The position numbers and the translations under genes are program-made. The notes beneath the pieces were generated by a model, which saw only the letters and a list, made by a program, of their open reading frames with translations, was not told the DNA's origin and did no database searches. From Desulfovibrio sp. (GTDB lineage Bacteria; Desulfobacterota; Desulfovibrionia; Desulfovibrionales; Desulfovibrionaceae), in contig JACQYS010000023.1 in the NCBI GenBank assembly GCA_016208105.1, forward strand, positions 124,001-188,000: 64,000 nucleotides of DNA, given 5' to 3'. Positions within the stretch are counted from its first letter, which is position 1; each line of letters opens with the position of its first letter. This document shows positions 30,655-51,140 of this stretch, one piece after another.

Positions 30655-30698
30655 GGGCGGTACAGGATTCGAACCTGTGGCCTTTGGCTCCGGAGGCC
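30655..30698. repeat. attL: 44-bp direct repeat of tRNA-Arg 3' half
   Basis: Identical over 44 bases to 51068-51111 inside the intact tRNA-Arg(CCG). It contains the T arm, variable loop and part of the anticodon stem but lacks the 5' half, so it is the tRNA remnant left outside the element. It lies 152 bp from the integrase start. Confidence 0.95.
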
Positions 30699-30801
30699 CA
30701 AGGTTTTTATTTTTACTGGTTTCTACAGATAGCCACACTAGCTCAAATTTATGAGGTTTATTTGATAAGTATTGCCTTGACTTTTTACTGGCTTTTACTA
30801 T

Positions 30802-30849
30802 TTTCCAACCAATAGGTTGGAAATAGGGTTGGAAAGTTGAGGTTGGAAA
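30802..30849. promoter_or_regulatory. Cluster of GGTTGGAAA sites near attL (integrase arm-type candidates)
   Basis: GGTTGGAAA occurs at 30815-30823, 30827-30835 and 30841-30849, with an inverted copy at 30802-30810. The last overlaps the ribosome-binding region of the integrase gene. The same 9-mer recurs twice at the other end (50983-51003), as expected for arm-type integrase sites. Confidence 0.65.
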
Positions 30850-32019
30850 ATGGCCAAGCGCCAAAAGACGAAATACCCAGGTGTTTTCACTCGTGAGGCC
30901 CGAAGGATTGGCGGGCGCGGTACAGAGTTGGTCTACTACGTCGTCTTCAAAAAGAATGGGAAGCTGATAGAAGAGAAGGTTGGAAGACAGTTTGCCGATG
31001 ATATGACCCCAGCTAGGGCCGCCGCCTACAGAGCTGAGCGGATAGAGGGGAAACGTCAGTCACGGAAAGACTTGAGAGAAGCTGACACAGCCGCAAAAGA
31101 GGCTGAGGCAAATAGGTGGACCATCGAGCGCATTTGGGAAGAGTACAAACATCAACGAGAAATTAAGGGTCTTAAACAGGACGAATGCCGCTATACACTA
31201 TATATTTCCCCTAGGTTCGCGAACAAGGTCCCCGCTGAGATCCTGACATTAGACGTTGACCGGCTACGGGTTCTTCTGACCAAGAAACAAGGGAAGAGCC
31301 CCCAGACTGTTAAGCATGTCATAGCTCTTTTACGTCGCCTTGTTCGATTCGCCGTCCTTAAAGGGCTTTGTCCCGCCCCTGAGCCCTCCAGGCTCTCTTT
31401 CGAAATCCCTCGTGTCGACAACTGTAAAACAGAAGATCTCACACCAGATCAGCTTTCGGCACTCATCGAAGCAATGGAGGATGATCCTAACCCCTGGGCT
31501 GCAGGCATTATGAAAATGGCCCTGCTCACGGGCATGAGGCGCGGCGAAATGTTTAAGCTCCATTGGGAAGACGTTGATTTCGAGCGGGGTTTTATCCACA
31601 TCCGCGACCCCAAAGGTGGGCCAAGCCAGAAGGTCCCGCTAAACGATCCTGCCCGTCTGCTTTTCGAGTCACTCCCAAGGACTGATAGCCCTTTTGTGTT
31701 CCCTGGCAGGGGGGGGAAGCAGCGAGTAGATATCAACCACCAAGTAGCGCGGATCAAGCAGAAGGCCGGGCTCCCTGATAGCTTTCGAGCCATCCACGGC
31801 TTACGGCATGTCTACGCAACCATGTTGGCGAGTTCTGGAGACGTGGATATGTACACCCTTCAAAAACTCATGACGCACAAGAGCCCGCAAATGACCCAGC
31901 GTTACGCACACTTGAGAGATGATGCCCTGAAGCGGGCAAGTGGAGTCGCTGGGGAAATATTCAGCAAGCTGACTACAGATAGCGAAGATAGAACAAAAAA
32001 TGAAAAATCTATAATTTAA
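30850..32019 (+). CDS. int: Tyrosine recombinase (phage-type integrase)
   Basis: A 389-residue integrase. N-terminal arm-binding segment (about 1-75, FTREARRIGGRG), SAM-like core-binding domain (about 90-190), and a catalytic domain with Arg in LLTGMRRGEMFKLHW, Lys in PKGGPSQKVPL, HGLRHVYATML (HxxR), His in LMTHKSP and the nucleophile Tyr in TQRYAHL. All six catalytic positions are present. It lies directly inside attL and presumably catalysed insertion into tRNA-Arg(CCG). GAGG precedes the ATG. Confidence 0.95.
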   Translation: MAKRQKTKYPGVFTREARRIGGRGTELVYYVVFKKNGKLIEEKVGRQFADDMTPARAAAYRAERIEGKRQSRKDLREADTAAKEAEANRWTIERIWEEYKHQREIKGLKQDECRYTLYISPRFANKVPAEILTLDVDRLRVLLTKKQGKSPQTVKHVIALLRRLVRFAVLKGLCPAPEPSRLSFEIPRVDNCKTEDLTPDQLSALIEAMEDDPNPWAAGIMKMALLTGMRRGEMFKLHWEDVDFERGFIHIRDPKGGPSQKVPLNDPARLLFESLPRTDSPFVFPGRGGKQRVDINHQVARIKQKAGLPDSFRAIHGLRHVYATMLASSGDVDMYTLQKLMTHKSPQMTQRYAHLRDDALKRASGVAGEIFSKLTTDSEDRTKNEKSII

Positions 32020-32074
32020 CTAAGTCGGCCTTGAAATATCATTATTTGTAACTTTGTTCGTTAAGGAGTGTGCA

Positions 32075-32332
32075 ATGCAGATGGTAAAAATTGTTGATTT
32101 TGAACTGGGTGACGTGAAGGGAGAGGTTCGGGTTTCAAGAGACGGGTTCGACACTTACTTTGATGTATATATTGATGGAGAATACACGGGTATCAAAGGG
32201 CAAATTGATGACTCAACTGCCCATGACTTTAAACATTTCAACAAAACCGAAAGCATTGAAGACATAATGATACAATCACTAATCGATTTGGCAACCAGAG
32301 CTGATGAAGAGTTTTTCAAGCCTGTAGAATAG
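32075..32332 (+). CDS. Small hypothetical protein
   Basis: 85 residues, acidic, no signal or membrane segment; begins MQMVKIVDFELGD and contains an alternating pattern like a small beta domain (GEVRVSRDGFDTYFDVYIDGEY is only partly seen as strands). The start at 32075 has AAGGAG seven bases upstream; the longer frame to 32054 does not. Unknown function; second gene of the element. Confidence 0.6.
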   Translation: MQMVKIVDFELGDVKGEVRVSRDGFDTYFDVYIDGEYTGIKGQIDDSTAHDFKHFNKTESIEDIMIQSLIDLATRADEEFFKPVE

Positions 32333-32338
32333 TTGGAC

Positions 32339-32375
32339 GGCTTGGCTGGGGAGTTGCGACCTCCCCAGCCAAGCC
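32339..32375. repeat. Perfect 15-bp hairpin
   Basis: Arms 32339-32353 and 32361-32375 are perfectly complementary with a 7-nt loop (TTGCGAC). No T-tract follows. It lies between two small element genes, 28 bp before the next start codon, so it could end transcription partly, protect the upstream mRNA, or bind a protein. Confidence 0.7.
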
Positions 32376-32403
32376 TAACCAGTAACCGCATGGAGGTGCG
32401 ATT

Positions 32404-49822: not shown

Positions 49823-49850
49823 GCGATCCTCGTTGAGTGTGGATGTATTG

Positions 49851-50822
49851 TTAATCTATGTCGTCATCGTTACTTTTCTCAGGGCCATGAATTTCGTTCC
49901 AGTCATCAAGCGGCATGACAGATGGCTCAACATATGAAAGTTCACCAACCTTCATAGAATGTTTCACAGTTAACTTCCTGGCGGCGGTAACTGCTGCCTT
50001 TTTGCCGTCACACAGGGTGTGTTCAATTATCTCACTCTTTGCTGACTGTTGCTTCCAGTCATCCCATTTAAATAGATATATGGCAGCCACCCACTGCCCA
50101 TCGCCAGCTTTCCATCTTTTCCCTCTTTCGCGCTCACTCTGAAGCGCGGCCTTAACTCCTTGCCATAGTAGGCGCTCTCTCTCCGTTTCTGATTTTGGAA
50201 TTGCATGAGTAGATACACTCCGAAAGGCGTATTCAAGGAATGAGTCTTCGGCGTATTCAATGAGATGAATAATTTTTCTAATGGCTTCTTTTAGTTTGTC
50301 AAAGTTATTGTGATTTTCAATGAATTTGTTGTTGTCATCTTTCATTTCTATTTCCTCAGTGTTCCCGTGATTCTCTGCTGTATTCTTGGATATGCAGATT
50401 ATTTTTTTTGATCTTTTTTTCCGTTTTTTCCATATATCTTTTGCAATCAGATCAAGTTCATTTTTCCCAATATTCCATTCAAATTTCTTTCGTTCGTTTT
50501 TAGCAATTTGAGTGTGGATAGGAATCACCCCAGGTTCATCTTGAAAAGACGGGATGCTGTTGAGAGCATTCCTGATGATTTGTTCGGTCGATTTGCTGGG
50601 GGACCCGTGTTCATCAAAAGATAATATCATCCCGTGCGTTTCCAATATTGATATTGGAACACGGTTTTCAAGTTCAAGGATAACGCTTGCGAGCTTTAGC
50701 TTTTGATTGGCAAATTTTGGGATATGAACGTCATCTTTAAAGAATGAATTAAACATGACGTTTGAAATTCTCTGAATTTCTCCGTCATCTTTGAACAGGT
50801 AGTATCGTAAGCCGTATCCCAT
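49851..50822 (-). CDS. Hypothetical protein, AT-rich cargo orphan
   Basis: About 323 residues, highly charged, with a Lys/Asn-rich middle (DIWKKRKKRSKKIICISK, NKFIENHNNFDK) and a C-terminus with GDGQWVAAIYLFKWDDW. No known domain. Start taken as ATG 50822; TTG at 50831 is also in frame. Together with the previous gene it forms the last, minus-strand cargo pair next to attR. Confidence 0.55.
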   Translation of the reverse strand: MGYGLRYYLFKDDGEIQRISNVMFNSFFKDDVHIPKFANQKLKLASVILELENRVPISILETHGMILSFDEHGSPSKSTEQIIRNALNSIPSFQDEPGVIPIHTQIAKNERKKFEWNIGKNELDLIAKDIWKKRKKRSKKIICISKNTAENHGNTEEIEMKDDNNKFIENHNNFDKLKEAIRKIIHLIEYAEDSFLEYAFRSVSTHAIPKSETERERLLWQGVKAALQSERERGKRWKAGDGQWVAAIYLFKWDDWKQQSAKSEIIEHTLCDGKKAAVTAARKLTVKHSMKVGELSYVEPSVMPLDDWNEIHGPEKSNDDDID

Positions 50823-50982
50823 GGTTTTCAATCATCCCGAGCAGTTGGCGATGTGTGCGGAATAGGGGTGCAGTTGTTGCGGCCCTCAGCTTTTTTGTAC
50901 CGAAACCTCATTTCCAGGTTTTGTGCAAGTAGCCGCTAGTGGCAACCACTCAGCAGGGGGGGGAGCTGATATTTGTCGGATA

Positions 50983-51003
50983 GGTTGGAAATGCGGTTGG
51001 AAA
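50983..51003. promoter_or_regulatory. GGTTGGAAA sites near attR
   Basis: Two copies of GGTTGGAAA, 12 bp apart (50983-50991 and 50995-51003), matching the set near the integrase. Candidate integrase arm-type binding sites. Confidence 0.65.
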
Positions 51004-51020
51004 ATGAATATTACGGAAAA

Positions 51021-51058
51021 GAAGAAGGGGCTAGATTGTGCATCTAACCCCTTGATAT
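51021..51058 (-). terminator. Rho-independent terminator of the reconstituted tRNA-Arg, carried by the element
   Basis: Stem of about 12 bp (AAGGGGTTAGAT paired with ATCTAGCCCCTT on the minus strand) with a short loop followed by a C/T-rich tract. The left, native flank has a different terminator (30616-30640), so the element supplies its own. Confidence 0.65.
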
Positions 51059-51063
51059 CATTA

Positions 51064-51140
51064 TGGTGGGCGGTACAGGATTCGAACCTGTGGCCTTTGG
51101 CTCCGGAGGCCAACGCTCTATCCAACTGAGCTAACCGCCC
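51064..51140 (-). tRNA. tRNA-Arg (CCG), integration target
   Basis: A 77-nt cloverleaf on the minus strand: GGGCGGTTAGCTCAG..., anticodon loop CTCCGGA (anticodon CCG), T arm GGTTCGAATCC, 3' end CCGCCCACCA with CCA encoded. The 44 bp of attR (51068-51111) lie inside it, so its 3' part came with the mobile element. Its discriminator base is A; the native left copy suggests G. Confidence 0.95.
51068..51111. repeat. attR: 44-bp direct repeat within tRNA-Arg
   Basis: Perfect copy of 30655-30698; marks the right end of the element. Sequence similarity stops in the anticodon-stem region on the tRNA side. Confidence 0.95.

Follow-up and report, generated by a model that had tools for sequence, protein, structure and literature searches.

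A tRNA-integrated element with a phage-satellite-like organization and candidate ejection genes in a Desulfovibrionaceae genome

We analysed a 64,000-nt stretch of Desulfovibrio sp. assembly GCA_016208105.1 (contig JACQYS010000023.1, positions 124,001 to 188,000), hereafter called the window, in which an integrase-led block of 20,413 bp lies at a tRNA-Arg(CCG) gene and is probably an integrated phage satellite. The block is framed by a 48-nt direct repeat whose two copies, spaced 20,413 nt apart, are identical at 47 positions and share the perfect 44-nt core that had been described in a first-pass annotation made from the letters alone. The tRNA call and the repeat positions likewise confirmed its placement of the intact tRNA at the right end and of a 3′ remnant at the left. 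A search of the host genome (4.18 Mb in 31 contigs) returned exactly two copies of the 44-nt core (zero copies for a reversed-pattern control), and the second-best ungapped match to the 48-mer in the window reached only 30/48, at a tRNA-Met gene. The GC content is 0.50 in the element and 0.61 in the flanks (window 1–27000 and 51141–64000). Predicted genes from 30850 to 49462 all lie on the plus strand, followed by two short right-end genes on the minus strand (Table 1).

Pfam and PHROG matches bore out the earlier calls of an integrase, AlpA-like, Mor-like and helix-turn-helix (HTH) regulators, a replication ATPase, an ERCC4 nuclease and a DUF5681 protein, with the Mor-like Pfam match falling below its cut-off. 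Of two proteins that had been called ejection-type, the 653-aa protein was supported by family matches, while the 680-aa protein had none. An alternative ATG start at 35966 is possible for the AlpA-like gene, and alignment with its homologue suggests that the hydrolase starts at 41434 rather than at the TTG.

Table 1. Features of the element and its boundaries (window coordinates; ORF, open reading frame)
Feature	Position	Strand	Basis
attL, 3′ 48 nt of tRNA-Arg(CCG)	30651..30698	-	repeat match and genome search
tyrosine integrase, 389 aa	30850..32019	+	Pfam PF00589 3.6e-29; 55% identical to integrase of element G159b
small ORF, 92 aa	32054..32332	+	ORF call
accessory protein, 228 aa	32404..33090	+	relatives at G159a, G121 and G058 loci, 32-37% identity
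ORF, 135 aa	33050..33457	+	ORF call; no PADLOC match
coiled-coil protein, 180 aa, apparent membrane segment (by eye)	33631..34173	+	translation
accessory protein A, 268 aa, paralogue of protein B	34212..35018	+	sequence comparison
accessory protein B, 252 aa	35064..35822	+	sequence comparison
AlpA-like HTH_17 regulator	35918..36160	+	PF12728 1.6e-6, over cut-off; phrog_66 4.4e-8
Mor-like late activator, 130 aa	36178..36570	+	phrog_532 2.5e-7; PF08765 6.1e-5, below curated cut-off
HTH regulator, 133 aa	36584..36985	+	residues 67-132 80% identical in F. agrisoli element
ORF, 107 aa	37158..37481	+	ORF call
replication protein, DnaB_N and AAA_25, 567 aa	37478..39181	+	Pfam/PHROG; 56% identical in element G075
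iteron-like array, putative origin	39008..39108		GGGGTACA units, direct and inverted
ORF, 119 aa, kept in element G075	39174..39533	+	66% identity
ORF, 130 aa, residues 50-130 kept in F. agrisoli element	39389..39781	+	62% identity
ERCC4-type nuclease	39771..40334	+	PF02732 1.9e-12; phrog_3490 8.6e-24
DUF5681 protein, possible packaging factor	40294..40782	+	PF18932 3.1e-15
78-aa protein	40779..41015	+	46% identical in F. agrisoli element
virion-type peptidoglycan hydrolase, SLT, 653 aa from TTG	41266..43227	+	PF01464 1.3e-19; phrog_2013, phrog_669, phrog_342
putative ejection (internal virion) protein, 680 aa	43231..45273	+	position and pairing; homologue is 760-aa F. agrisoli protein
ORF, 113 aa	45532..45873	+	ORF call
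Fic protein, SoFic-like, candidate defence cargo	46245..47438	+	PF02661 3.8e-16; PADLOC SoFic 2.2e-46
AT-rich ORF, 142 aa	48148..48576	+	ORF call
DNA/RNA non-specific endonuclease (Endonuclease_NS), apparent signal peptide (by eye)	48560..49462	+	PF01223 2e-35
small ORF, 94 aa, apparently membrane-bound	49538..49822	-	ORF call
protein, 326 aa	49851..50831	-	ORF call, family scan
attR, repeat copy within intact tRNA	51064..51111	-	repeat match
intact tRNA-Arg(CCG)	51064..51140	-	tRNA call and Rfam RF00005, 74 bits, 51067-51140

The right flank was matched in all seven genomes of the genus (genomes are given by G numbers below). Comparison with these relatives, which the first-pass annotation had named as a check, yielded two, G106 and G050, in which the tRNA is intact, no second repeat copy occurs in the 19.9 kb read and no relative of the window integrase was found at the tRNA. 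The joined flanks of the window align over the junction in both genomes with only about 44 nt of alignment left of the repeat. These 44 nt are weak evidence, because a similar terminator-like stretch is also present at the right end of the element, and the case for insertion is therefore carried by the intact tRNA and the absent second copy. Left-flank synteny in G106 picks up again only at window position 22394, and no left-flank match was found in the G050 stretch. The part of the window that is not syntenic with G106 immediately left of the element (27000–30650) is perhaps older island DNA; it is AT-richer (GC 0.47–0.57) and, judged by eye, encodes a 659-aa chemotaxis-type receptor.

Other genomes indicate from their sequences that the tRNA-Arg(CCG) site is an integration hotspot. 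G094 (C12, L182 and L183) carries a different integrase element there with about 19.4 kb between the repeats, G118 (L186/L188) carries another with its repeat copies on two contigs, and in G009 (C51, L187) an integrase adjoins the tRNA at the contig start; the G075 contig terminates within the right flank. Integration of the block into tRNA-Arg(CCG) is near certain. The proposal of site-specific integration by a tyrosine recombinase is well supported by the repeat, the intact tRNA and the two congeners that retain the tRNA and lack an integrase element, and the arrangement of the two repeat copies shows that the integrase inserted the element into the 3′ end of the tRNA gene and regenerated it.

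A sister element was identified in G009, which we take to be Fundidesulfovibrio agrisoli SG106 (NZ_JAKZKX010000016.1); the host of the window appears to belong to the same genus. On contig C8 of this genome, a 58-bp repeat in tRNA-Lys(CTT) bounds 18,974 bp. The two elements share a collinear core consisting of the HTH regulator, the 130-aa ORF, ERCC4, DUF5681, the 78-aa protein, the hydrolase and a protein of 680 aa in the window and 760 aa in F. agrisoli. By tblastn, identities between the two elements were 80% over 66 residues for the HTH regulator, 62% for the 130-aa ORF, 76% for ERCC4, 68% for DUF5681, 46% for the 78-aa protein, 27% for the hydrolase and 44% for the 680/760-aa proteins (49% in a separate comparison). 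The integrases are only 31% identical, and the replication genes differ in type (primase/helicase in F. agrisoli, phrog_239 9.8e-30, versus DnaB_N/AAA_25 in the window). The hydrolase domain has been swapped (SLT in the window, a part matching phrog_873 endolysin in F. agrisoli), with the C-terminal tail conserved. The occurrence of this collinear core in a different tRNA of a different species supports a satellite-like element rather than a prophage. Ratios of nonsynonymous to synonymous divergence (pN/pS) were 0.23 for ERCC4, 0.35 for DUF5681, 0.39 for the 78-aa protein, 0.45 for the 680/760-aa pair and 0.65 for the hydrolase; synonymous sites were nearly or fully saturated, which blunts the measure, and values below 1 argue against a decaying remnant. 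The apparent cargo of the F. agrisoli element (L007:2043–6277), read by eye, includes a 925-aa CheB/CheR-like and a 427-aa PAS-type protein.

We then surveyed 288 genomes of the bacterial family, in which relatives of ERCC4 were present in 72 and relatives of DUF5681 in 40. Comparison of the two lists by hand gave 23 adjacent same-strand ERCC4–DUF5681 pairs in 21 genomes, some of them at contig ends. A repeat test at 17 tRNA places in 15 regions, with an exact direct repeat of at least 32 nt as the criterion, was positive in 8 of the 17 rows, corresponding to seven elements (one counted twice) of 11,856, 11,410, 15,950, 7,595, 10,365, 17,535 and 7,831 bp; the remaining nine rows showed no direct repeat longer than 15 nt within the stretch examined. 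Five of the seven contain both ERCC4 and DUF5681, one DUF5681 only (G142) and one ERCC4 only (G122 C2). Together with those of the window and F. agrisoli, nine elements of 7.6–20.4 kb are delimited by tRNA repeats. The 7.6-kb element of G102 has relatives of the integrase, AlpA-like, AAA_25, ERCC4 and DUF5681 proteins, and this small gene set suggests a minimal core. The first-pass annotation had held that the same block at another site without repeats, or capsid or terminase genes in an unbroken prophage, would speak against its reading; neither turned up, with the caveat of the nine repeat-free tRNA places just mentioned. In named genomes, the best 79 of 159 DUF5681 loci, many of them alphaproteobacterial, included 29 with a relative of the window integrase and six with an ERCC4 relative, and none of the 79 matched either of two terminase seeds.

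Three further observations concern these loci. The host genome itself contains a decayed relative beside a tRNA-Ser gene (G000:C29, about 63613–65840; L119:17613–19840), where, by eye, the integrase is broken and ERCC4 is truncated and joined to an HTH-like protein. The G122:C4 locus (L131, 2340–6061) appears by eye to encode type I restriction-modification genes downstream of its ERCC4–DUF5681 pair, at a place where no boundary of the element was found. The paralogous accessory proteins A and B of the window have no family match; relatives occur at loci in G058, G083, G094 and G159a, and from this distribution they may form an accessory family of such elements.

The gene set of the block had been described as unlike that of any complete phage, and this was upheld. 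No Pfam or PHROG match to a large terminase, connector or capsid was obtained among 20 block proteins and the 326-aa protein, with ORFs of about 60–135 aa mostly outside the scan, and neither these searches nor the late-gene tblastn found a tail-tube gene in the block. The hydrolase domain of the SLT protein does give matches to tail, lysis and head-packaging families. In 29 genomes, which cover 20 of the 23 pairs, a profile search placed no phrog_2 large-terminase match closer than 20 kb to a pair, a negative that is not watertight since the search overlooked a terminase in viral contig L200 that hmmscan detected. For this reason we added a direct late-gene tblastn, in which the queries were ten G118 podophage proteins and two further terminases, and the targets the window and 35 other records (817 kb; 19 further pairs, ERCC4-only or DUF5681-only loci and one phage record). 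No match was obtained, while six podophage loci gave 21 distinct rows; the twelve seeds represent podophage and Mu-type genes only, so that other phage types could escape.

No other 150-bp segment of the element is as rich in repeats as the array in the last part of the replication gene. Its F. agrisoli counterpart, located where the primase gene ends, is built of GGGGTTTC units in two inverted blocks separated by 65 nt. We scored repeat density as repeated 8-mers per 150 bp, using the element alone for the window and G009 and the element with flanks for the other loci. In 9 of 17 loci the maximum fell in the 1.5 kb preceding ERCC4, versus about 1.3 expected (the interval covers about 7.5% of positions scored), a count in which some elements are mutually related and in which the place relative to the replication-gene end was examined in the window and G009. 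The nine loci are the window, G009, G075, G159a, G159b, G202a, G202b, G255 and G122. This interval ranks third in G207, the peak lies 1.9–2.3 kb before ERCC4 in G121, G058 and G102, and the maximum does not fit the pattern in G041, G110, G214 and G195. Phage-inducible chromosomal islands (PICIs) are described as having iterons directly 3′ of their replication gene (PMC6092414). Analysis of the repeats points to the array as a putative replication origin.

Downstream of DUF5681, the window hydrolase matches phrog_342 (internal virion protein with endolysin domain, 8e-21), phrog_2013 (lytic tail protein, 1.4e-32) and the tape-measure chain of PDB 9b45 (1.2e-9). Besides the window, G009 and G159a (phrog_873, head and packaging) have a virion-type hydrolase in this position, followed by a large partner; G159a belongs to another genus and has three such genes of 341, 669 and 671 aa. 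The hydrolase domain appears exchangeable, F. agrisoli and G159a both having another lysozyme-like domain in place of SLT. Two elements of G202 (C1; L152, L153) encode 566- and 623-aa proteins after DUF5681, which share their C-terminal but not their N-terminal halves and have no PHROG match, and the proteins in this place in G159b (273 aa) and G058 (615 aa) were of no recognised kind. Outside the family, L194 encodes an endolysin-type protein of 820 aa and another protein of 938 aa ahead of DUF5681 with no phrog_2 match, L201 an endolysin-type protein after DUF5681, and a Geminicoccaceae metagenome-assembled genome (L245:6204–9877) a single protein adjoining DUF5681 that fuses hydrolase-like and 938-like parts. 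By hhalign, the partners of the window and G009 showed no similarity to that of G159a. Scans of viral sequences and genomes with the 680-aa protein or its alignment found no relative, nor did the viral scan with the replication protein. Because its links to families and to podophage proteins were insignificant, the term ejection protein for the 680-aa product rests on its place, pairing and size; supply of ejection proteins by the element is possible. As for DUF5681, a protein with this domain has been reported among the virion proteins of Salmonella phage STGO-35-1 (PMC8954984). A small-terminase fold was considered for the window protein and rejected: its model (predicted local distance difference test score, pLDDT, 80; predicted template modelling score 0.50) had no PDB match with E <0.001 and no terminase among the 50 matches listed.

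A helper phage in the same genome, for which the first-pass annotation had suggested a search, was not found with PF03237, phrog_2 and connector-protein searches of the host genome; the phrog_332 search was empty there, as it was in every control genome, and is uninformative by itself. One weak phrog_2 match in the host genome was rejected because it lies, by eye from the translation, in a UvrB-like helicase, and several in congeners (447-aa frames) look like AAA ATPases and not terminases, a judgement made by eye on a single example. An apparently complete podophage (phrog_2 terminase, phrog_332 connector, phrog_212 capsid, phrog_376/394 tail) is present in the congener G118, and its late block then encodes proteins of 378, 535 and 1703 aa. 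Relatives of its connector occur in G202, G102, G110 and G122, all of which have ERCC4–DUF5681 pairs (5 of 15 genomes searched). With these podophages in relatives and the hydrolase/680-aa cassette in mind, our guess is that the helper is a podophage. By eye, the podophage prophages of G202:C1 (L299/L300) and G102:C8 (L301) seem to end after a single 191-aa internal protein, unlike those in L302 and L209, which have large internal proteins.

Taken together, we favour the view that the element is an integrated phage satellite, one of a tRNA-integrated family within its bacterial family, and consider this probable for integration, induction, replication and the satellite nature itself. The satellite nature is likely, and a PICI-like design of which a few members carry ejection-type genes is the best reading; the satellite-like character proposed earlier gained support from the sister element, from relatives where the searches found neither head nor large-terminase genes and from the PICI-like repeat array. 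By analogy with PICIs and phage-inducible chromosomal minimalist islands (PICMIs), a helper phage would induce the element by way of its AlpA-like, Mor-like and HTH regulators, with excision carried out by AlpA and the integrase. The DnaB_N/AAA_25 protein would then replicate it from the array in the 3′ end of its own gene. DUF5681, perhaps with the ERCC4 nuclease, might steer helper packaging to element DNA, which we offer tentatively. It is more doubtful that the hydrolase, typed by homology, and its 680-aa partner are taken into the particle made by the helper and function in DNA delivery; no precedent for satellite-supplied ejection proteins was found in the literature searched, which omits many subscription papers and all bioRxiv preprints. 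The Fic protein and the nuclease would be cargo that may act against other phages. In its strongest form, the proposal describes a satellite class with its own DNA-ejection apparatus, which borrows the capsid, connector, terminase and tail of a podophage and replaces the internal ejection proteins by its own hydrolase and partner; we regard this as rather unlikely.

Several observations weigh against the satellite interpretation or its later steps. ERCC4 relatives are common in viral contigs (best 80 of 352 stretches kept), and DUF5681 occurs in 13 viral contigs and is not confined to such elements. In L200 (5665–7780) the phrog_2 large terminase that the profile search missed lies directly upstream of DUF5681, in L198 a tape-measure gene follows DUF5681, and in L138 and L191 DUF5681 lies near tail-type genes as seen by eye. 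The failure to find a helper prophage counts on the same side. Weak small-terminase matches were obtained for the AlpA-like protein (phrog_57 1.3e-3, phrog_141 0.025), so the small-terminase role could sit in another gene than DUF5681, whose model matches no solved structure. Among 18 of the 23 pairs viewed by eye (one with only 1.3 kb downstream), a hydrolase was seen in three and a G202-type large protein in two, and the 680/760-aa pair was found in 2 of 348 genomes of the class. The 680-aa protein itself gave no family match, empty or insignificant PDB and phage searches, nothing significant against podophage internal proteins and an unusable fold model (mean pLDDT 38.6).

A rival reading is a decayed podophage prophage, now a cryptic island, in which the terminase, connector, capsid and tail genes that once separated DUF5681 from the ejection genes would have been lost. 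The hydrolase and its partner resemble the end of a podophage where internal proteins are encoded, relatives such as the congener G118 carry seemingly complete podophage prophages, DUF5681 follows a large terminase in L200, and a broken relative is present elsewhere in the host genome. However, the same junction of DUF5681, 78-aa protein, hydrolase and partner recurs in an independent element at a different tRNA of a different species, and exact repeats bound relatives that yielded no late gene. The core genes have open reading frames with pN/pS below 1, though at saturated synonymous sites, and the podophage regions examined share only an integrase relative (32%, in G202) with the element. 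We therefore consider such decay improbable. The least tenable alternative, an integrative genomic island that spreads by generalised transduction or natural uptake, with phage genes as passengers and with DUF5681 and ERCC4 serving maintenance and not packaging, would suit the commonness of DUF5681 in alphaproteobacterial genomes, the integrase relatives at 29 of the best 79 (of 159) loci, the amount of cargo and the lack of a helper found in the genome, but it sits poorly with the phage-type regulators (AlpA, Mor), the PICI-like repeat array at the replication gene, the virion-type hydrolases after DUF5681 in three family members and the fact that no relaxase or conjugation family turned up among the 21 block proteins scanned, and we give it little credence.

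An integrated satellite, as we favour, would add a satellite family to the sulfate-reducing bacteria. Our literature searches turned up few papers that name both phage satellites and Desulfovibrio, none on prophages of Fundidesulfovibrio and none pairing satellites with internal virion proteins and a helper phage; for satellites and ejection proteins, the papers listed offered S. aureus gene-transfer work and a mention confined to a reference list. If ejection proteins are indeed supplied by the element, helper particles with satellite DNA would cross the host envelope in a satellite-defined way, and it would become testable whether these proteins decide which cells the particle enters.

Among known systems, the cassette resembles phage internal virion and lytic tail proteins (phrog_342, phrog_873, phrog_2013) in that a late-type block ends with a large hydrolase and then a large partner, but head, connector, large terminase and tail tubular genes were not found and the partner sequence is unrelated to those tested. 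A complete prophage would have a large terminase, connector, capsid and tail, which were not found in the block. Capsid-forming PICIs bring their own capsid and packaging genes and take tails; the element would similarly bring some virion parts of its own, whereas only ejection-type genes and no capsid or packaging genes were found in it. By the phage naming rule, the name vB_EcoP_Kapi1 denotes a podophage. EcCIMP1, a PICI with AlpA regulators, is mobilised by this temperate phage (PMC11773190), and the main text of that report never uses the word ejection and describes no ejection genes, in contrast to the candidate genes of the window element. PICMIs of Vibrionaceae (PMC10803314) are likewise small satellites with int, AlpA and a replication gene and no capsid-remodelling genes, but they integrate at fis and have a 6.1-kb prototype, whereas the window family uses tRNAs, has the ERCC4–DUF5681 pair and reaches 20.4 kb in the window; the int–alpA–primase core also differs, since DUF3987/DUF5906 are absent from the Pfam matches of the window replication protein. 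Gram-negative PICIs such as EcCICFT073 (PMC6092414) share with the element an integrase, an AlpA-like regulator, mainly rightward genes, accessory genes and an iteron-like array at the 3′ end of the replication gene (in the window, inside the last part of the gene). PICIs are further characterised by attachment sites that prophages do not use; at the tRNA-Arg(CCG) site, the occupants seen in congeners were integrase elements. They differ from it in the DnaB_N/AAA_25 replication gene of the window and the primase/helicase type of F. agrisoli, in the use of various tRNAs by the family and in the added hydrolase/680-aa cassette. No capsid-morphogenesis gene and no clear small terminase (weak matches of the AlpA-like protein only) were recognised in the element, and because these packaging genes mark PICIs, we do not class it as one. 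Phage satellites in general are described as having attL/attR and an integrase, a size of 7–20 kb, regulatory and replication modules, no virion structural genes and helper-dependent packaging and transfer (PMC13376191). The element has the attachment sites, the integrase and both modules, and its 20.4 kb lie just above the upper edge of this range, within which its relatives fall (7.6–19.0 kb). While no capsid, connector, large terminase or tail-tube gene was found in it, it does carry an SLT hydrolase and a putative ejection protein. A satellite that supplies ejection proteins would, if true, represent another division of labour between satellite and helper.

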